Source of the DNA: Sphingomonas nostoxanthinifaciens
GTDB taxonomy: Bacteria > Pseudomonadota > Alphaproteobacteria > Sphingomonadales > Sphingomonadaceae
Reading direction: 5' to 3'
Length of the DNA: 64,000 bases
NCBI RefSeq assembly: GCF_019930585.1
Contig: NZ_CP082839.1
Span: 2,910,001 to 2,974,000 of the forward strand
Position 1 is the stretch's first letter, and each line of letters opens with the position of its first letter. The notes beneath the pieces were generated by a model. That model saw nothing but the letters and a program-made list of their open reading frames with translations. It was not told the origin of the DNA and ran no database searches. The translations under genes and the position numbers were made by a program. Shown piece after piece: positions 5,519 through 16,242 of this stretch.

Positions 5519-7410
<1,892 letters not shown>

Positions 7411-7445
7411 TCGACTCGCAAAGGGCGATCGGATAGGGTGGCGGA

Positions 7446-7694
7446 ATGATCGTCGACACCCTGACCATCGCCCGCGAACTGAAGGCGGCCGATCTGCCCG
7501 CCGGTCAGGCCGAGGCGATTGCAGCTGCGATCGGACGATCGGTCAGCGAAACGGCGGCGACGAAAGTGGACCTCGATCTCCTCCGGCACGAGCTGAAGGC
7601 CGATATTGAGAAGGTTCGCAATCAACTGCTGCTCTGGTTCGTAAGCACGCAGATTGCGCTCGGCGGCCTGATGATCGCGCTCATCAAATTGTAG
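7446..7694 (+). CDS. small DUF1640-like coiled-coil membrane protein
   Basis: An 82-residue protein fitting the bacterial DUF1640 pattern, related to the mitochondrial CCDC90/MCUR1 group. It has an N-terminal DTLTIARELKAADLPAGQAE, then a predicted coiled coil (ATKVDLDLLRHELKADIEKV, about 38-57), and one C-terminal membrane helix ending in ALIKL. It lies 35 nt after atpD and 6 nt before atpC in the same direction, so it is probably co-transcribed. Function in bacteria is not established. Placement inside the F1 operon is the notable point. Confidence 0.8.
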   Translation: MIVDTLTIARELKAADLPAGQAEAIAAAIGRSVSETAATKVDLDLLRHELKADIEKVRNQLLLWFVSTQIALGGLMIALIKL

Positions 7695-7700
7695 GAACCC

Positions 7701-7964
7701 ATGGCTCTTCACTTCGAACTCGTCACGCCCGAGAAGCTGGTCCGCTCGGAGGATGTCCACATGGTGGTCGTGCCCGGCACCGAGGGTGACTTCGGCGTGC
7801 TGGAGGGCCATGCGCCGCTGATGTCGGTGGTGCGTGCGGGCGAACTGACCGTCTATTCCAGCGCCAGCACGATCATTGCGCGCATCGCCGTCGACGGTGG
7901 CTTTGCCGAAGTGAACGAGAAGGGCCTGACCGTCCTCGCCGAGGCGGTCACCGAAGCCGCCTGA
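7701..7964 (+). CDS. atpC: F1F0 ATP synthase subunit epsilon (short form)
   Basis: An 87-residue epsilon subunit with [20 protein letters not shown] and the [15 protein letters not shown] motif of the N-terminal beta-sandwich. It lacks the C-terminal helical hairpin (about 45 residues) present in E. coli epsilon. The missing part is the inhibitory arm. Short epsilon subunits are common in alphaproteobacteria, where other inhibitors may take over. It is the last gene of the operon and converges on gtrA with 13 bp between the stops. Confidence 0.95.
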
Positions 7965-7977
7965 TACTCCCTTCCGC

Positions 7978-8367
7978 TCAGCGCGTGCGCGGGCGGAACA
8001 CGATTAGCGCGTTGAGCAGGAAGTTCGCGCCGAACGCCACGCCGACGCCGATCAGCTTGGCGACGACGGGCGGGATCGGCAGCAACGCGGCGGCGAGCGT
8101 CGTCACGCTCACGTTGATCGCCAGCCCGATCAATGCTGCCGCGAGGAACTGCGCGAAGCCGGCGACGCTGCGCCGATGGCCGAACACGAAGCGGCTGGTC
8201 AGCCAGTAATTCACCACCGCCGCCATCGCGAAGCTGAGGCAGGCGGCCAGCGGTACGATCAGCCCGGCCCGCACGAGACAGGCGAATAGCCCGATATCGA
8301 CCACCGCCGCCGTGCCGCCGGTGCCGACATAGCGCAGCAGGCGACCGGAGAGCAGCGGCCCGCTCAT
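7978..8367 (-). CDS. GtrA-family membrane protein
   Basis: A 129-residue protein with four predicted membrane helices, typical of the GtrA family. These proteins are proposed to move or present polyprenyl-linked sugars; in mycobacteria one member acts with decaprenyl-phosphoryl-arabinose enzymes. It ends a four-gene minus-strand operon, and its ATG overlaps the HAD stop (ATGA). A role in handling a lipid-linked sugar made by the UbiA-like neighbour is inferred from this context. Confidence 0.85.
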   Translation of the reverse strand: MSGPLLSGRLLRYVGTGGTAAVVDIGLFACLVRAGLIVPLAACLSFAMAAVVNYWLTSRFVFGHRRSVAGFAQFLAAALIGLAINVSVTTLAAALLPIPPVVAKLIGVGVAFGANFLLNALIVFRPRTR

Positions 8368-9062
8368 GCCCCCGCCAGCAACGGCGCGAACACCGGATCG
8401 TCATAGCGCGCGAAGCAGGTCCAACCGGCGACCGGCTTGCTCTTCCGGATCAGGCTGTGCGCTCCCGCGCGGCGCGCGGCGAGGCCGTCGCGCTCGGGCC
8501 GGTCGCCGACCAGCACCGTCTGGTGCGGCGCCACGCCCGCCGCGGCGATCAACGCCAGCAGCCCGTGCGGGCTCGGCTTGAGGCGGGTGAAATCGGGCGT
8601 GTCGGGCCCATGCATGTGATCGGCGGCCAGCCCCATCGCAGCGAGCTTCGCGGCGGCGGGATAATCCGACAGGATGCCGATCGTCCGACCCGAGGCACGG
8701 ATCGCGGCAAACAGGCCCGGCAACCCGGCATACATGCTGGCGCGAAGGTGCGGCAGCGGCCGGCGGTGAATCCACTCGGCGACGGTGCGCGTGACCTCGT
8801 CCGCGCTCACGCCCGCAGCCGCGGCGGTGGCGGCGACGAGTGTCGCCTCGACATCGTCGCGCTCGGCCTCGCCATAGTCTTCGCGCAGGCGGCGATAGGC
8901 GCTCAGGACGCGCAGCGTGCGCCGCCCCCCTGCCCCGCCGGCCCGCAATGCGAGCGCCAGCGCCATGCGCAGCCGCAGCGGCCGCTGGCGATAGAGCGTG
9001 CCGTCGACATCGAACGCGACCAGGCGGATATCCGCCCAGTCGAAGCCGGGATCGGCCGCCAC
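8364..9062 (-). CDS. HAD-superfamily phosphatase
   Basis: A 232-residue haloacid dehalogenase-type hydrolase. Motif I is FDVDGTLY, with nucleophile Asp18 and Asp20; GILSDYPAA carries motif II Ser; the Lys of LKPSPHG is motif III; VLVGDRPERDG is motif IV. GTG 9062 is chosen because it is 2 nt after the stop of the UbiA-like gene and gives a normal HAD N-terminus; the open frame continues upstream only as a shadow of that gene. Beside a phosphoribosyltransferase-like enzyme it could remove the 5-phosphate from a polyprenyl-phosphoryl pentose phosphate. That is inference. Confidence 0.85.
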   Translation of the reverse strand: MAADPGFDWADIRLVAFDVDGTLYRQRPLRLRMALALALRAGGAGGRRTLRVLSAYRRLREDYGEAERDDVEATLVAATAAAAGVSADEVTRTVAEWIHRRPLPHLRASMYAGLPGLFAAIRASGRTIGILSDYPAAAKLAAMGLAADHMHGPDTPDFTRLKPSPHGLLALIAAAGVAPHQTVLVGDRPERDGLAARRAGAHSLIRKSKPVAGWTCFARYDDPVFAPLLAGA

Positions 9063-9064
9063 GC

Positions 9065-10039
9065 TCAGTCGACCGCGATGAAGTGCTGGCTGGTGAGCGT
9101 GTCGAGCGGCTTCATGTCGACCAGCGTCGCCAGCACGAACAGTCCGCTCAGGATCGCGACGGTCAGCATCAGCCCGCGCTCGCGAAACAGTTTCTCGGGC
9201 TTCTGTGCAGTGGATTCCACCTGCATCGACAGCGCAAGATATTGCGCGAACAAGGCCGTGATCGCCGGGAGCGTGATGATATATTCGACGCGATATTTGA
9301 TGAGGAACACCGCGAGGAAGAAGCCGCTCAGCATCGCATAGACGAAACAGGAGAGCGTCAGCGACAGCTCGGTATAGCCGGCGAAGCTGGCGCGGTAGCG
9401 CATCAGCAGCTCCTTGCCGTGCGACGCGACGATCTCGTGATATTCGGACAGGCGCTTGGCCGCCATCAGGAACGCACCGCCGAGCCAGTAAGCGAGGATC
9501 ACCGACGAGGGCGGCAGCGTCATCGGATCGATGATCGTCCAGCCGATCACCAGCCGCAGCGGATTGTTGATCGATTCCGAAATGACGTCGAGATAGGCCT
9601 TGTTCTTCGACCGCAGCGGCGGGACGTTGTAGACGATGCCCTGCGCCGCGAAGATGATCGCGGCACCCAGCATGGTCGTACCGCCGATCGACGCCGCGCC
9701 CAGTCCGATCGCCACGAACAGCGCCCATTCGGCCCAGACGATCGCACCCGACATTTCGGTCTGCACCGCCATGCGCTGCGACTTGGTCGGATGGTGGCGG
9801 TCGAAATCGCGGTCGAGATATTCGTTGATGACGTAATTGGCCGAGGCGATCGTCACCGCCGCCAGCAACCCGCACACGGCCGACAGCAGCAAAGACGGCG
9901 TGTGGACGCCGCGCAAAATGTAGGCGAGCACGCAGCCGGGAATGATGAAGACATGCTTCGTCATGTGATCGAACCGCGCGATGCGGATATATTCGCCCAG
10001 GCCGGCCTTCACCGGCGGACGGGCAAGCGTGTCATGCAT
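9065..10039 (-). CDS. UbiA-superfamily transferase, DPPR synthase-like
   Basis: A 324-residue integral membrane protein with 8-9 predicted helices. The first acidic motif is N72-E-Y-L-D76-R-D-F-D80 followed by RHHPTKSQR. The NxxxDxxxD...HPxK form is characteristic of decaprenyl-phosphate phosphoribosyltransferase (DPPR synthase) rather than of ubiquinone or heme prenyltransferases. The likely reaction is transfer of ribose-5-phosphate from PRPP to a polyprenyl phosphate at the inner membrane. Its start overlaps the upstream membrane-protein gene by 8 nt, and HAD and GtrA genes follow directly. Family confidence is high, exact substrate moderate. Confidence 0.82.
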   Translation of the reverse strand: MHDTLARPPVKAGLGEYIRIARFDHMTKHVFIIPGCVLAYILRGVHTPSLLLSAVCGLLAAVTIASANYVINEYLDRDFDRHHPTKSQRMAVQTEMSGAIVWAEWALFVAIGLGAASIGGTTMLGAAIIFAAQGIVYNVPPLRSKNKAYLDVISESINNPLRLVIGWTIIDPMTLPPSSVILAYWLGGAFLMAAKRLSEYHEIVASHGKELLMRYRASFAGYTELSLTLSCFVYAMLSGFFLAVFLIKYRVEYIITLPAITALFAQYLALSMQVESTAQKPEKLFRERGLMLTVAILSGLFVLATLVDMKPLDTLTSQHFIAVD

Positions 10040-11534
10040 CGAACGGGCCTCCGGGGGGCGTGATAGTGGCGGATGATTGACGTTTGATGAGCGCGGCGCC
10101 GCTGAGGGCGAGGAACGGCAGCAGCCAGATCACGCGCGCCTGAAAGCGATCATAAGGGAAAGCGAGCAGGCCGCAGGCGAGCCCGTTCAGCACCACGCCC
10201 GCGCAGACGATGCCCGCGAGCAGCAGCCAGCCGCGCGCGTGCGTATCGCCGCGCAGCCGCCACGCGATCAATGCCAGCGCCGGGAGCGAAAGCCAGACGA
10301 CGACCCGCTGGAGCAGATCCTGCGCGTCGAGCCAGCCGGGATGGCGGACGACCGCGCTCGCCTCGATGCGCGCGACCTGCGGCGCGGGCATCGCCGCGAA
10401 AAAGGGCAGCTTGCGCGCCTGATCGAGGTCGAGATAGCTGAACAGCACCACCTGCCGCAGCGCGTCGCCCGCCAGGAAGGTCGCGACCGCGACCGGCCGA
10501 TCCTTCGCCATCGCGATCAGCAGCGGCACCTGCTGATCCGACAGGCGGCGCTGACCGGCATAGTCCATGCCGCCATAGAAATGCTGGCCGAACAGGAAAT
10601 CGGTCCACACCACCGGCAGCCGGTTACGATAGTCGCACAGCAGGAAGCCGTTGCCGGGGCAGGTGCGCGCCAGATAGCCCGAGAGGATCGGGCTCTCGGC
10701 AAAATGCGCGGTCAGGTGTGGCAGCCGCATCAGCGGCAGGCCCGTCGTCTTGCGCGCGACGAGCGCGAAGGCCTGCAGGTAGAAGATCGCCGCGAGCAAG
10801 GCGAACGCCGTCGTCCAGGGCCACGCCGCGCTTCCGCCCTGCCGGCGCACCAGCAAGGCGACGATCGCGCACAGCGCCAGCATGCCCGCCAGCACGACGA
10901 CATGGCTGTCGTGCAGCATCGCCGCATAAGCGAGCAGCGCGAACAGGACGACATGGTCGAGCGAGCGCAGCCGGGCGCCGAAGGCAAGCAGCATCGCCGG
11001 GATCAAAGCGATCAGCGCCGCCGCATAATCAGGCATCACCAGCCCGGCGAACAGCGGGAGCGAGCTGGCGACAGCGAGGACCGCCGCCCCGACGATCAGG
11101 CTCCAGCCGGAAAGCCCGAGGCAGCGCATCCAAACGAGCGCGAGCGGCACCGCGATCATCAGCGCCTGCCAGAAGGCAACGAGCGTGAAGCCGCCGGCGG
11201 CGTAGAGCAGATAGGTGGCGACGCTGTAGACCAGCGACCGGCCCGCAATCCACACGCGCGGCGCGGCCGCCGGCGCCATCGGCGCGGCCTGTGGCGCGGG
11301 TGTCGCCACCGTCGCGACGGCCGGAGCCGCCGCCGCATCGTGGTGCTTGGCCGCCGCCAGCCAGTCGTCGCCCGCCTTCAGATGCAGCCCGGCGGCGCGG
11401 ACCGGACCGACCGCCTTGCCGACATAGCCGATGCTGTCTTCATAGAAGAAGGCCGCGCCGTTCAGCAGCACCGGCAGAATCAGCACCAGCGCCGCGATCA
11501 GCGCATAGAGATATGGACGACCGACTTTCTGCAT
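10032..11534 (-). CDS. polytopic membrane protein, GT-C-like
   Basis: A 500-residue protein with about ten membrane helices. It has an N-terminal helix, a first external segment with FFYEDSIGYV, a low-complexity Ala/Pro stretch (about 65-90), and a late soluble region (ARTCPGNGFLLCDYRNRLP) with two cysteines. The layout suggests a GT-C lipid-sugar-dependent glycosyltransferase, but I do not recognise the family. ATG 11534 is preferred to a TTG 15 nt upstream. It is the first gene of the operon with UbiA-like, HAD and GtrA genes, so it is a candidate user of the lipid-linked pentose. Confidence 0.65.
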   Translation of the reverse strand: MQKVGRPYLYALIAALVLILPVLLNGAAFFYEDSIGYVGKAVGPVRAAGLHLKAGDDWLAAAKHHDAAAAPAVATVATPAPQAAPMAPAAAPRVWIAGRSLVYSVATYLLYAAGGFTLVAFWQALMIAVPLALVWMRCLGLSGWSLIVGAAVLAVASSLPLFAGLVMPDYAAALIALIPAMLLAFGARLRSLDHVVLFALLAYAAMLHDSHVVVLAGMLALCAIVALLVRRQGGSAAWPWTTAFALLAAIFYLQAFALVARKTTGLPLMRLPHLTAHFAESPILSGYLARTCPGNGFLLCDYRNRLPVVWTDFLFGQHFYGGMDYAGQRRLSDQQVPLLIAMAKDRPVAVATFLAGDALRQVVLFSYLDLDQARKLPFFAAMPAPQVARIEASAVVRHPGWLDAQDLLQRVVVWLSLPALALIAWRLRGDTHARGWLLLAGIVCAGVVLNGLACGLLAFPYDRFQARVIWLLPFLALSGAALIKRQSSATITPPGGPFDA

Positions 11535-11698: not shown

Positions 11699-13186
11699 AT
11701 GAGCGCATTCGGTAAACGGGGGGGCACGATCGGCGCGCGCGCGACCTTCGGCGTGGCGCGCCCGATGCAGAGCAATAGCGGCCTCGAAGGCGGCGCCCAA
11801 TTCCCGACGCTGGATCCGCAGACGCTGGAGAGCGCCGTCGCCGGCGCACCGCAGGATGCGATGTCGCGGCTTGCCGATCGCATGGCCTCCGCCTCCGATC
11901 ACGCCATATCCCGCCTCGAAGGGTTCGAGGCCTCGGTCCACAAGATCAAGGAACAGGTGCTGCCGCGCCTGCTCGAACGCGTCGATCCCGAAGCCGCCTC
12001 GACCTTGTCCAAGGATGAGCTGGCCGAGGAATTCCGCCCGATCGTCGGCGAGGTGCTCGCCGAGCTGCGCATCACGCTCAACCGGCGTGAGCAGTTCGCG
12101 CTGGAGAAGATGCTGGTCGACGAGCTGCTCGGCCTCGGCCCGCTCGAGGAATTGCTGTCCGATCCGCTCATCACCGACATCATGGTCAATGGCCCCGACC
12201 AGACCTACGTCGAACGCAAGGGCAAGCTGGAGATCGCGCCGATCCAGTTCCGCGACGAGGAGCATCTGTTCCAGATCGCGCAGCGCATCGTCAGCAAGGT
12301 CGGCCGCCGCGTCGACCAGACCACTCCGCTCGCCGACGCACGCCTCGCCGACGGCAGCCGCGTCAACGTGATCGTGCCGCCGCTCTCGCTGCGCGGCACC
12401 GCCATCTCGATCCGCAAATTCTCGGCCAAGCCGATCACGATCGACATGATGGCCAATGGCGGCTCGATGTCGACCAAGATGGCGACCGTGCTCAAGATCG
12501 CCGGCGCGTGCCGCATGAACGTCATCATCTCGGGCGGCACCGGCTCGGGCAAGACGACGATGCTCAACGCGCTGTCGAAAATGATCGATCCGGGCGAGCG
12601 CGTCATCACGATCGAGGATGCGGCCGAGCTTCGGCTGCAGCAGCCGCACTGGCTGCCGCTGGAAACGCGCCCCGCCAACCTCGAGGGCCAGGGCGCGATC
12701 GCGATCCGCGACCTCGTCGTCAACGCGCTGCGCATGCGACCCGACCGCATCATCCTCGGCGAGATTCGCGGCGCCGAATGTTTCGACATGCTCGCGGCGA
12801 TGAACACCGGCCACGACGGATCGATGTGCACCCTCCACTCCAACTCCCCGCGCGAGGCGCTCGCCCGCATGGAGAACATGGTGCTGATGAGCGACATCAA
12901 GGTGCCGAAGGAAGCGATCAGCCGCCAGATCGCGGACTCGGTCGACCTGATCGTCCAGGTCAAGCGCCTGCGCGACGGCAGCCGCCGCGTCACCAACATC
13001 ACCGAGGTGATCGGGATGGAAGGCAGCGTGATCGTCACGCAGGAGCTCTTCAAGTTCGAATATCTGGACGAGAGCGCCGAGGGGAAGATCCTGGGCGACT
13101 ACAAGTCGATGGGCCTGCGCCCCTACACGCTCGACAAGGCCAAGCAGTTCGGCTTCGACCAGCCCTATCTCGAGAGCTGTTTGTGA
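11699..13186 (+). CDS. cpaF: CpaF/TadA-family type IV pilus/secretion ATPase
   Basis: A 495-residue hexameric secretion ATPase of the Tad/Flp pilus (VirB11-like) family. Walker A GGTGSGKTT lies at 279-287; the Asp box VITIEDAAELRL, the Walker B-type DRIILGEIRG and the His-box region SMCTLHSNSPREALAR follow. The first ~60 residues form a variable Gly/Ala-rich head. No other tad/cpa gene is nearby, so it is either an orphan or works with a cluster elsewhere. It is divergent from the GT-C-like gene across about 165 bp. Confidence 0.93.
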   Translation: MSAFGKRGGTIGARATFGVARPMQSNSGLEGGAQFPTLDPQTLESAVAGAPQDAMSRLADRMASASDHAISRLEGFEASVHKIKEQVLPRLLERVDPEAASTLSKDELAEEFRPIVGEVLAELRITLNRREQFALEKMLVDELLGLGPLEELLSDPLITDIMVNGPDQTYVERKGKLEIAPIQFRDEEHLFQIAQRIVSKVGRRVDQTTPLADARLADGSRVNVIVPPLSLRGTAISIRKFSAKPITIDMMANGGSMSTKMATVLKIAGACRMNVIISGGTGSGKTTMLNALSKMIDPGERVITIEDAAELRLQQPHWLPLETRPANLEGQGAIAIRDLVVNALRMRPDRIILGEIRGAECFDMLAAMNTGHDGSMCTLHSNSPREALARMENMVLMSDIKVPKEAISRQIADSVDLIVQVKRLRDGSRRVTNITEVIGMEGSVIVTQELFKFEYLDESAEGKILGDYKSMGLRPYTLDKAKQFGFDQPYLESCL

Positions 13187-13225: not shown

Positions 13226-14713
13226 ATGGCCAGCCTCGCCCCAACCCTGAAGCCCATCGCGCGCATCCCGGCCATGTCCACGGCCGTTGCCGCGACGCTC
13301 GGCCTGATCGCGGCCGCGCTCCTGCTGCGGCTGCCGAGCTTCGGCGACCCTGCTTTCCATGTCGACGAAGAATTCTACCTGCTCGTCGGCGACCGGATGC
13401 TGCACGGCGCCATTCCCTACGTCGATATCTGGGATCGCAAGCCGATCGGGCTGTTCCTTGTCTACGCCGCCATTCGCCTGCTCGGCGGCGACGGGATCCT
13501 GCAATATCAGATCGTCGCCGCTCTGTTCGCGGGCGGGACCGCCGCCTGCATCTTCCTGCTGTCGCGCCGGACGGCGGGCACGTTCGGGGGCGTCGCCGCC
13601 GGCCTCGTCTATCTCGTCTGGATCGAAACGGTGGAAGGCGGTGGCGGCCAGTCGCCGGTCTTCTACAATCTGTTCATGGCGATGGCGGCGTGCTGCATCT
13701 TCGCCGCGGGCGAGACGCGCGATCTGCGCCGTTTCGGCACGCTCGGCTTCGCAGCCATGGCCCTGACCGGCGTCGCGATCCAGGTGAAATATACCGCCTT
13801 GTTCGAGGGCCTCTATTTCGGCCTTCTATTAGCCTGGTGGAGCATCCGCCGCTGCGGCGGGCTGCTGACCGCGATCCCGCTGACGGCGGCTTTCGCGCTG
13901 ACGGCGCTGGTGCCCACCATCGCGGCGATCGCGGTCTACGCCGCGCTCGGCCACCTCGACATCTTCTGGTATTCGAATTTCGTCTCGATCTTCCACCGCG
14001 GTCCGGCATCGTCGGCGGAGCTGCATCACCGCATCGTCCAGATGCTGCTGCACGTCGTGCCGCTCCTCGTCTGCTTCCTCGCGAGCCTCTGCTACGTCTG
14101 GCGCACCGGCTCGCGCGACGCCCGGAGCCGGTTGCTGCTGGTCGGCGGCTGGATGGTGGCGGCGTTGTGCGGCTTCTTCTCGGTGGGCGCGCTGTTCTTC
14201 CACTACATGCTGCCGCTGTTCGTGCCGTTCGCAGTCGGCGCCTCGCCCATTTTCCGCCAGCGCCCGGTCGGCCCGTTCTTCGCGTTCACCGCGATCTTTC
14301 TACCGCTCAGCCACCTCTCCTATCCCGATTTCGCGACGACGCGGCATTCGCGCGACCAGATCGCCGAACTCGTCGCGCTGATCCCGCCGCAGGTCGACAC
14401 GGGCTGCATGGAGTTGCTGGCCGGCCCGCCCATCCTCTACAAATTGACCAACGCCTGCTTCGTCACCCCCTACATCTTCCCCGATCATCTGCTCGGCGCC
14501 AAGGAAGCGGGGGCGACCGGCACCGACGCGGTGGCGGAACTGGGGCGCGTGATGAAGGCGCGCCCGCTGGCGCTCGTCACCGACGACACGCCGCGCGACA
14601 TGAACATGGCAGTCTATCGCCTGCTGCGCGCGACACGCGACGCTGCCTATCGCCGCGCCGGGCGCGTGGTGATGGACGGGATGACGCTCGACGTCTGGAT
14701 CCGCCGGTCGTGA
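13226..14713 (+). CDS. ArnT/GT39-like membrane glycosyltransferase
   Basis: A 495-residue polytopic protein with the GT-C pattern of dolichyl/undecaprenyl-phosphate sugar transferases. The first membrane helix is followed by DPAFHVDEEFYLLVGD, with the acidic catalytic pair near D47/E48, and then DIWDRKPIG. There are about ten further helices and a small C-terminal periplasmic domain with Cys residues (TGCMELL, NACFV). It follows cpaF by 39 nt, and its stop overlaps the GTG start of the next membrane gene. It probably adds a sugar to an envelope glycan or lipid; the acceptor is unknown. Confidence 0.78.
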   Translation: MASLAPTLKPIARIPAMSTAVAATLGLIAAALLLRLPSFGDPAFHVDEEFYLLVGDRMLHGAIPYVDIWDRKPIGLFLVYAAIRLLGGDGILQYQIVAALFAGGTAACIFLLSRRTAGTFGGVAAGLVYLVWIETVEGGGGQSPVFYNLFMAMAACCIFAAGETRDLRRFGTLGFAAMALTGVAIQVKYTALFEGLYFGLLLAWWSIRRCGGLLTAIPLTAAFALTALVPTIAAIAVYAALGHLDIFWYSNFVSIFHRGPASSAELHHRIVQMLLHVVPLLVCFLASLCYVWRTGSRDARSRLLLVGGWMVAALCGFFSVGALFFHYMLPLFVPFAVGASPIFRQRPVGPFFAFTAIFLPLSHLSYPDFATTRHSRDQIAELVALIPPQVDTGCMELLAGPPILYKLTNACFVTPYIFPDHLLGAKEAGATGTDAVAELGRVMKARPLALVTDDTPRDMNMAVYRLLRATRDAAYRRAGRVVMDGMTLDVWIRRS

Positions 14714-16242
14714 CCCTTGCGCCACGGCGCGCGACGAGGCTCGTGCCGGCCGCCTTGATCCTGCTGCTCACCGTCGCCCTGCTGCTGCCCGCTTTCCTCG
14801 CGCCGGCGATGACGCATGACAGCTTCTGGATCGACCGGACGTGGTCCGAACAGTTCACGATGCTGCTGCGCTCCGGCAACCCCTATCCGCGCTGGCTGCC
14901 CTGGTCCTATGGCGGCCTGGGCGCGCCGGTCTTCTATTATTATGCGCCGCTGTCTTTCCATCTGGCGGGGCTGATCGGGCTGACGGGGATCGCCACCTAC
15001 CCCGCTCTGCTGCTCGCATTCGGCTGCGCGTGGTTCGGATCGGGCCTCGCGATGCATGCGTGGCTGAAGGATCGGGCCGCGGCGCCATTGGCGGGCGCGC
15101 TGCTCTACATGGTGCTGCCGTACCACGTGATCGACTTCTACGGGCGCGGTGCGCTCGCCGAATTCTGCGCATTCGCGATCATCCCGCTCGTCGCGATCGG
15201 CATCTGCCATGCGGCGGATCGCGGGCGCAGCTGGCCGCTCGCGATTGCCTATACCGCGCTCATCATGACGCATTTGCCGACGGCAGTGATCGCCAGCGTG
15301 CTGCTGGTGGCTCCGCTCGCTTTGTGGTCCGCGCAGGGCGACATAAGACGCCTGCTGCCGGTCGCGACGGGGCTGGCGACGGGCTTGGCCGGCGCGGCGA
15401 TCTATCTCGTGCCCGCACTGACGCTGCAACATCATGTAGCGCTCGGCTCGCTGTGGGACGTGCCGTTCCTGCAGCCCGCGAATTGGAGCCTGCTGCACCC
15501 CGCGCGCTGGACGAGTACCAGCTACGTGCTGCTGTTCGACGGCCTCGCGCTCGCGACCGCCGCGACGGCGCTGCTGCTGAGTGGGCGCCGCCCCGGCTTC
15601 TGGACGATATGGACGGTGGCCATCGCCGCGATCGCTGCAGGGCTGCTGCCGGGCTTCTGGTCGCTGCCGGTGTTGAAGGCGGTCCAGTTTCCGTGGCGGG
15701 CGCTGGCGCTGGCCGAGTTCGGCCTCGCGACCGTGGCGGCCGGTCGGCGCGGATCGCCGGTGACGACAGTCGCGATCCTGCTGCCGCTGCTCGCCTTCGC
15801 GCTGACGATGCTATCGCCGGCCAACCCGCTACACGGCGATGCCATGACCCCACTACCGATTCCCGGCCGGCAGGACGTGATCGAATATCTGCCCGCCGGT
15901 GCGGTCGCCATGGGACGTGCACCCCGCACCCACCTGCTTCAAGCAGCGACCGCGACCGCGCGACGCCATCCGGGCGCGATGTTCAGCTATCCGTCGGTGC
16001 AGGCGCGCTGCGACGACGGATCGTCATCGCCGCCCCGACGCGATCGCGACAGCGCGCTGCTGGTGCGCGCGCCTGCCGATTGCCGGCTGGAGATCGGGCG
16101 GCTGCCGCAGGAATGGCTCGGCCTGTTCATCTCGCTGGCCGGCTGGGGGGCGGTCGCCGCCTCGGCCTACCGCCCTTCGCCGCGCCGTCTCAGCGCGCGA
16201 GCTTGTCCAGCTTGGTCTGCAGGCTCGCCAGCTGTTCCTTGA
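14710..16242 (+). CDS. PTPS-related-type membrane protein, possible GT-C
   Basis: A 510-residue polytopic protein beginning at GTG 14710, overlapping the previous stop as GTGA. The N-terminal region has an external HDSFWIDRTW, then NPYPRWLPWSYGGLGAPVFY, which is the pattern of the 6-pyruvoyl-tetrahydropterin-synthase-related membrane family; these resemble GT-C enzymes. The RGALAEF motif follows. A C-terminal soluble portion contains two Cys (QARCDD, PADCRLE). The last 53 bp overlap phaR on the other strand tail to tail, so the true C-terminus (RPSPRRLSARACP...) deserves a check. It is translationally coupled to the ArnT-like gene. Confidence 0.72.
   Translation: MTLAPRRATRLVPAALILLLTVALLLPAFLAPAMTHDSFWIDRTWSEQFTMLLRSGNPYPRWLPWSYGGLGAPVFYYYAPLSFHLAGLIGLTGIATYPALLLAFGCAWFGSGLAMHAWLKDRAAAPLAGALLYMVLPYHVIDFYGRGALAEFCAFAIIPLVAIGICHAADRGRSWPLAIAYTALIMTHLPTAVIASVLLVAPLALWSAQGDIRRLLPVATGLATGLAGAAIYLVPALTLQHHVALGSLWDVPFLQPANWSLLHPARWTSTSYVLLFDGLALATAATALLLSGRRPGFWTIWTVAIAAIAAGLLPGFWSLPVLKAVQFPWRALALAEFGLATVAAGRRGSPVTTVAILLPLLAFALTMLSPANPLHGDAMTPLPIPGRQDVIEYLPAGAVAMGRAPRTHLLQAATATARRHPGAMFSYPSVQARCDDGSSSPPRRDRDSALLVRAPADCRLEIGRLPQEWLGLFISLAGWGAVAASAYRPSPRRLSARACPAWSAGSPAVP

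Follow-up and report, generated by a model that had tools for sequence, protein, structure and literature searches.

A probable mobile pentofuranosylation cassette with a UbiA-family donor enzyme in Sphingomonas nostoxanthinifaciens

The window analysed here is a stretch of 64,000 nt from the genome of Sphingomonas nostoxanthinifaciens (assembly GCF_019930585.1, contig NZ_CP082839.1, positions 2,910,001-2,974,000), and all gene positions are given in window numbering. Between the genes for atpC and a cpaF/tadA-type ATPase lie four genes only, all on the minus strand, which encode a GT-C-like membrane protein, a UbiA-family enzyme, a HAD phosphatase and a GtrA protein (Table 1). The GT-C and UbiA genes overlap by 8 nt, the HAD gene starts 2 nt past the UbiA stop, and the HAD and GtrA genes overlap by 4 nt. 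We consider it quite probable that these four genes constitute a mobile cassette for extracytoplasmic pentofuranosylation. The first-pass annotation of this DNA had described a compact four-gene operon for a lipid-linked pentose, in which ribofuranose could be the sugar: the gene arrangement is as it stated, the UbiA, HAD and GtrA identities are upheld by Pfam matches, and the GT-C likeness is borne out by the fold of an AlphaFold model.

Table 1. Genes of the cassette and its immediate flanks (window numbering).
Feature	Position	Strand	Gene call	Assignment
GT-C gene	11534-10032	minus	ATG start, 500 aa	GT-C fold by AlphaFold model
UbiA gene	10039-9065	minus	324 aa	PF01040, 1.4e-14
HAD phosphatase gene	9062-8364	minus	GTG start at 9062, 232 aa	PF00702, 5.5e-15
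GtrA gene	8367-7978	minus	129 aa, small membrane protein	PF04138, 3.9e-21
atpC (left flank, outside the cassette)	7701-7964	plus	start set at the final Met ahead of the HFELVTP motif; last stop-codon base 7964	
cpaF/tadA-type ATPase (right flank, outside the cassette)	11699-13186	plus		PF00437, 8.4e-61; TIGR03819, 6.1e-101 (below its cut-off)

The UbiA protein carries the motif named in the first-pass annotation, N72-x3-D76-x3-D80-x2-H83-P84-x-K86. Its closest sequence in the PDB is 8j8j, the decaprenylphosphoryl-5-phosphoribose (DPPR) synthase of M. tuberculosis, with an E-value of 3.9e-7 for the single protein and 2.1e-17 for a profile of 28 clade members. An AlphaFold model (predicted local distance difference test score, pLDDT, of 90.8) superposes best on the same donor-bound structure, with Z 27.0 and a root-mean-square deviation of 2.6 Å over 284 residues, as compared to Z 23.2 for the next UbiA family. 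The residues that hold phosphoribosyl pyrophosphate (PRPP), Mg2+ and the lipid phosphate in mycobacterial Rv3806c were compared in the numbering of that enzyme, which is taken, with the roles, from the part of PMC10994848 that deals with them. The window protein keeps R22, K28, Y70, N73, D77, K87, R90, Y138, K143, K191, R192 and E195, and departs from Rv3806c at D74E, Q135G, Y157N and K208A.

Relatives of this enzyme were collected in 84 rows, comprising the window, three genomes of the same family and 80 loci from a scan of species genomes; they occur in Alpha- and Gammaproteobacteria, Bacteroidota, Bacillota, Nitrospirota, Verrucomicrobiota, Planctomycetota and others, and Sphingomonadaceae are among the nearest named relatives. 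The retained positions from R22 through to K191 are found in 82-84 of the 84 rows, the remainder being gaps or single substitutions; K28 and K191, the lipid-phosphate contacts of DPPR synthase, are thus conserved in the clade. The motif N-E-x2-D is present in 83 of the 84 rows, where all 30 classical references have N-D, and the clade receives a Shimodaira-Hasegawa-like approximate likelihood ratio (SH-aLRT) support of 98 in a quick tree. By its sequence features (N-E for N-D, and G and N at two contacts to the ribose or 5′-phosphate), the UbiA enzyme belongs to a clade separate from the classical DPPR synthases, for which we found no name among the NCBIfam models or in the literature searched. 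We predict, from these sequences and from the model, that it is a PRPP:polyprenyl-phosphate 5-phosphoribosyltransferase of this N-E type. Two of the relatives appear disrupted, either by decay or by sequence errors: one has an in-frame stop (L086:8001-8960), the other is split across two frames (L025:8001-8938).

The HAD protein shows the motifs FDVDGTLY, SDY, KPSP and GDRPERDG. Members of one HAD family accompany UbiA within 1.5 kb on the same strand at 59 of the 84 clade loci, spread over several phyla (55 of 73 when only loci with 2.5 kb or more on either side are counted). No relative of the window HAD was found with its profile in the classical DPPR-synthase loci, and a PDB search returned two weak HAD matches only. 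Neighbours with multiple membrane helices stand at 71 of the 84 loci, a count for which there is no chance control and which we do not use as evidence. GMC oxidoreductases occur within 3.5 kb at 21 of the 84 loci; they stand beside UbiA and HAD at L060:8990-10429, at L070:10474-10905 and at similar Pedobacter and Novosphingobium loci, those of Pedobacter encoding in addition a small protein that has no Pfam match and is about 143 aa long.

The GT-C protein has no Pfam or NCBIfam match, and a PDB sequence search with its profile returned chance antibody matches only. Its AlphaFold model (pLDDT 85.9) finds GT-C fold enzymes, or complexes containing them, in rows 1-32 of a structure comparison (Z 14.2-6.9), including OST, AglB, PMT, PglB, ArnT (Z 13.7), AftA (Z 12.9), AftB, EmbA and AftD; plain Foldseek with the same model gave nothing at E ≤ 0.001, with ArnT first at 0.036. 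Asp33, which follows the first membrane helix, is invariant in the 12 aligned homologues and is a candidate catalytic residue on this alignment. Homologues were found in nine of 296 genomes of the order, the window genome included, and seven of the eight other loci have a GT2 gene (PF00535) at most about 2.5 kb away, with GtrA confirmed in three. The UbiA enzyme was found in only four of the 149 genomes searched in the family; two of the eight other genomes with GT-C homologues, G028 and G079, were part of that search and are not among these four. With GT2 and GtrA genes close to the GT-C relatives, these loci are most simply read as a swap of the donor module, in which UbiA and HAD would have replaced the hexose-donor enzyme (GT2) of a gtr cassette.

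The atpC stop and the cpaF start are 82, 82, 151 and 179 nt apart in four congeners, as compared to 3,734 nt in the window (a comparison that leaves out L167, where the gap is not computable, and G110, where cpaF has no match at the limit used), and no gene of the cassette turned up in the 6.6-14 kb of sequence retrieved for these four sites. Since the site is tight in congeners, we regard the cassette as a discrete insertion. A functional tie to the cpaF/Tad or ATP-synthase genes is rejected, as atpC stands beside cpaF without the cassette in congeners and as the cassette is sited elsewhere in the relatives L139 and L140. We take the neighbours there, from reading their sequences, to be a gatB-like gene in L139 and nrdA- and nrdB-like genes on either side in L140. 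In L139, a genome of the same family, an IS481-like transposase gene (6329-7876) splits UbiA from HAD in what is otherwise the same set of four genes. On the other side of cpaF, two large membrane proteins are encoded on the plus strand (13226-14713 and about 14713-16242), the first with a sub-threshold PMT_2 match; since neither has a match in the fetched stretches around cpaF of congeners, they are perhaps a second insertion.

Plasmids carry related genes as well. Relatives of UbiA occur on 21 plasmid records, 16 of them from Rhizobium, and the order UbiA-HAD-GtrA is found on two Rhizobium plasmid loci (L173, R. johnstonii 3841 pRL10, and L174, R. etli IE4803), and a search of those plasmids revealed no GT-C like that of the window. 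A 9.1 kb Paracoccus plasmid carries UbiA together with a GT-C that is 29% identical to that of the window. On a plasmid of Rhodobacter sp. CZR27 (L176:3302-5959), HAD, a degenerate UbiA and GT-C are fused in one protein of 885 aa. Its HAD/UbiA stretch is of the PRK08238 type (275.8 bits with NF006088 over residues 35-389, short of the cut-off of 351), and the UbiA part has lost N73, D77, K28, Y70, K87 and K191; its C-terminal domain is 33% identical to the window GT-C, and its HAD has no detectable kinship to that of the window. The fusion gene is followed by an intact UbiA from the same clade as the window enzyme and then by GtrA, so that this locus ties the same four functions together a second time, with another phosphatase. 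Viral contigs gave five pattern matches, none of them a relative, and phage records no match.

From what was computed, namely the gene packing, the folds, the binding residues, the absence of DprE1, the recurrence of UbiA with HAD, the insertion and a donor module unlike that of GT2-based gtr cassettes, we infer the lipid, sugar and acceptor as well as each step of the chemistry. The UbiA enzyme would load a pentose from PRPP onto polyprenyl phosphate, and the HAD protein, a predicted phosphatase, would remove the 5′-phosphate from the resulting polyprenyl-P-ribose-5-P. GtrA, the predicted flippase and a member of a family to which mycobacterial Rv3789 is kin, would then bring polyprenyl-P-ribofuranose across the inner membrane. 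There, the GT-C enzyme, which is predicted to move a pentofuranose from polyprenyl phosphate to a periplasmic acceptor, would hand the sugar on to an acceptor in the periplasm or at the cell surface (lipopolysaccharide, capsule, exopolysaccharide or protein), by inversion to an alpha linkage if the Citrobacter precedent discussed below holds. Without DprE1 in cassette or genome, the sugar should remain ribo-configured.

A DprE1 query taken from a classical DPPR-synthase locus matched, in tblastn, 17 of the 20 classical loci fetched, its own source included, and none of 83 clade loci, some of them no longer than 4 kb. The window genome contains no PF04030 match at E 0.01, where the control genome of C. 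glutamicum matched, and no DprE1 match at 1e-10, the limit at which its four FAD_binding_4 proteins are also rejected as DprE1; no search was directed at DprE2 or at a xylose epimerase of the Citrobacter type. The absence of DprE1 that had been noted for the window thus extends to the whole genome. Genome-wide, 12 of 51 clade genomes have a match at 1e-10 and five at 1e-80 or better. Arabinose by way of DprE1 is rejected, as DprE1 was found neither in the window genome nor in the clade loci, and because it is absent from both cassette and genome the product is likely ribofuranose rather than arabinofuranose, as far as gene content can tell. An epimerase or oxidoreductase encoded elsewhere might still turn the lipid-linked ribose into arabino- or xylofuranose or another form, the rest of the cassette working as proposed. 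Epimerases diversify the Citrobacter system, as the relevant part of PMC11127046 has it. The GMC oxidoreductases at clade loci, which could take the part of DprE1, point to possible oxidation or epimerisation of the sugar by other members, and an NAD-dependent epimerase gene is present at locus L141 as well. In the window, however, the cassette bounded by atpC and cpaF includes neither a GMC nor an epimerase gene and the genome no DprE1, and we regard a converted sugar as unlikely here.

Further observations weigh against a ribofuranosylation cassette. The UbiA protein scores 54.9 bits with the best DPPR-synthase model, NF008977 (PRK12324 equivalogs), where the cut-off is 234, and 28.2 and 25.8 bits with the other decaprenyl-phosphate phosphoribosyltransferase models (cut-offs 207 and 474). 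In the quick tree the clade does not fall inside the DPPR-synthase group, and an archaeal UbiA joins it on long branches. A same-strand HAD gene within 1.5 kb is missing from 25 of the 84 loci, and GtrA is within 3 kb of UbiA at only 14 of the 84. Donor contacts are altered throughout the clade, with G for Q135 in all 84 rows and N for Y157 in 83, and the equivalent of D74 is E; in Citrobacter ORF15, the exchange D248A at the counterpart of D74 abolished activity, as reported in a section of PMC11127046.

These fixed changes, together with N-E for N-D and with the invariance of N158 and N159 across 28 of 28 clade sequences, would be explained if the clade used a donor other than PRPP, such as a different pentose or a deoxypentose diphosphate. 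The contacts to pyrophosphate and Mg are nevertheless retained, as is Y70, and position 135 varies in the classical enzymes too, being N in 21 of 30. To our knowledge, PRPP is the only donor of its kind, and a different one seems to us quite improbable.

The UbiA fold itself is shared with ordinary prenyltransferases. The Foldseek E-value places archaeal UbiA 4tq4 (2.1e-7) slightly above 8j8j (4.2e-7), another point on the opposing side, while the TM-score on the query is 0.66 for 4tq4 and 0.76 for 8j8j; G at the position of Q135 also occurs in archaeal UbiA 4tq3. Where ordinary UbiA enzymes have their second Asp motif, however, the window protein has K195-R196-x2-E199, and KR-x2-E is found in 84 of the 84 clade rows. 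The genome encodes a separate heme O synthase and a 4-hydroxybenzoate octaprenyltransferase, both above their NCBIfam cut-offs and both without K28, Y70, K87, K191 and R192; an archaeal UbiA lacks Y70, K87, K191 and R192 (the compared stretch does not reach K28). That the UbiA protein is an ordinary prenyltransferase for a quinone, heme, chlorophyll or ether lipid with coincidental neighbours, an alternative also named in the first-pass annotation for quinone or heme precursors, is the least probable of these readings and is rejected for quinone and heme on the motifs and the dedicated paralogues, with the retention of K28 and K191 and the recurrence of HAD at 59 loci also speaking against it.

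The lipid-linked pentose pathway, with ribofuranose as its likely sugar, is hence supported by the PRPP and lipid-phosphate residues, the fold match to DPPR synthase, the HAD partner and the lack of DprE1. A wider proposal, of which we are less than half convinced, is that the clade of N-E/G135/N157 membrane phosphoribosyltransferases (at least in Pseudomonadota, Bacteroidota, Bacillota and several further phyla) drives DprE1-free mobile ribofuranosylation cassettes, born by an exchange of GT2 for UbiA and HAD in gtr-type seroconversion cassettes. Pedobacter and Novosphingobium branches would modify the lipid-linked pentose by GMC oxidoreductases instead of DprE1, and the glycans concerned, including any set by Rhizobium plasmids, would be unrecognised.

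If the cassette functions as proposed, lipid-linked pentofuranose transfer, so far worked out for mycobacterial arabinan, some pili, Nod factors and a few O antigens, would gain a second enzyme clade, one that many environmental bacteria and rhizobial plasmids carry, and the surface glycans of such bacteria could be examined for ribofuranose. It would also suggest a modular rule, by which a pair of GT-C and GtrA can be recharged with a new sugar by swapping the donor enzyme. Since the clade has fixed changes at known donor contacts, its substrate can be tested directly in the farnesyl-phosphate assay already published.

The first-pass annotation had compared the locus to the mycobacterial genes for the arabinose donor. 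Of that likeness, the active site and fold of the UbiA enzyme stand; the operon appears to be mobile and inserted here, its predicted phosphatase belongs to the HAD enzymes, the UbiA protein falls outside the classical DPPR-synthase group, and the closest precedents are the Citrobacter pathway and gtr-type cassettes. The mycobacterial decaprenylphosphoryl arabinose pathway (Rv3806c, Rv3807c, DprE1/DprE2 and Rv3789) likewise has a small flippase, Rv3789, of the small multidrug resistance (SMR) type, and GT-C acceptor enzymes, whereas the window cassette lacks DprE1, has HAD in place of Rv3807c, a phosphatase unrelated to HAD enzymes, and a UbiA far below the DPPR-synthase cut-off (mycobacterial flippase and phosphatase as described in part of PMC11127046). 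With the gtr cassettes of O-antigen glucosylation (GtrA, GtrB, Gtr) it shares GtrA and a GT-C, but UbiA and HAD take the place of the GtrB-type GT2 donor synthase. A DPPR-synthase-like enzyme in a proteobacterial operon for glycan decoration is also found in noeCHOP of Azorhizobium caulinodans, for Nod factor arabinosylation (from the portion of PMC2443382 on these genes), and among the pilin-arabinose genes of Pseudomonas PA7 (described in PMC11127046, same restriction); those yield arabinose, whereas the window cassette has no epimerase genes.

The nearest precedent is the three-component pentofuranose system of Citrobacter youngae O1/O2 (Kelly et al. 2024, PMC11127046), which comprises, in the sections of that paper used here, a polyprenyl-phosphoribose synthase with a HAD domain, a MATE flippase and a GT-C of family GT136, and is reported there to be widespread. 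Both systems combine a UbiA-family synthase, a HAD phosphatase, a membrane flippase and a GT-C, and the ribose version in Citrobacter likewise works without DprE1/E2. In the window, by comparison, HAD is a separate gene, GtrA replaces MATE, the UbiA enzyme comes from another clade, with N-E in place of N-D, and no family was detected for the GT-C. Apart from PMC11127046, the literature searched yielded nothing relevant to such cassettes. Since gene layout, flippase and UbiA clade differ from that system, we regard the cassette as a variant on a known pentofuranose system: the general idea is already known, and what appears new here, judged from the sequences, is the different UbiA clade and the different flippase.

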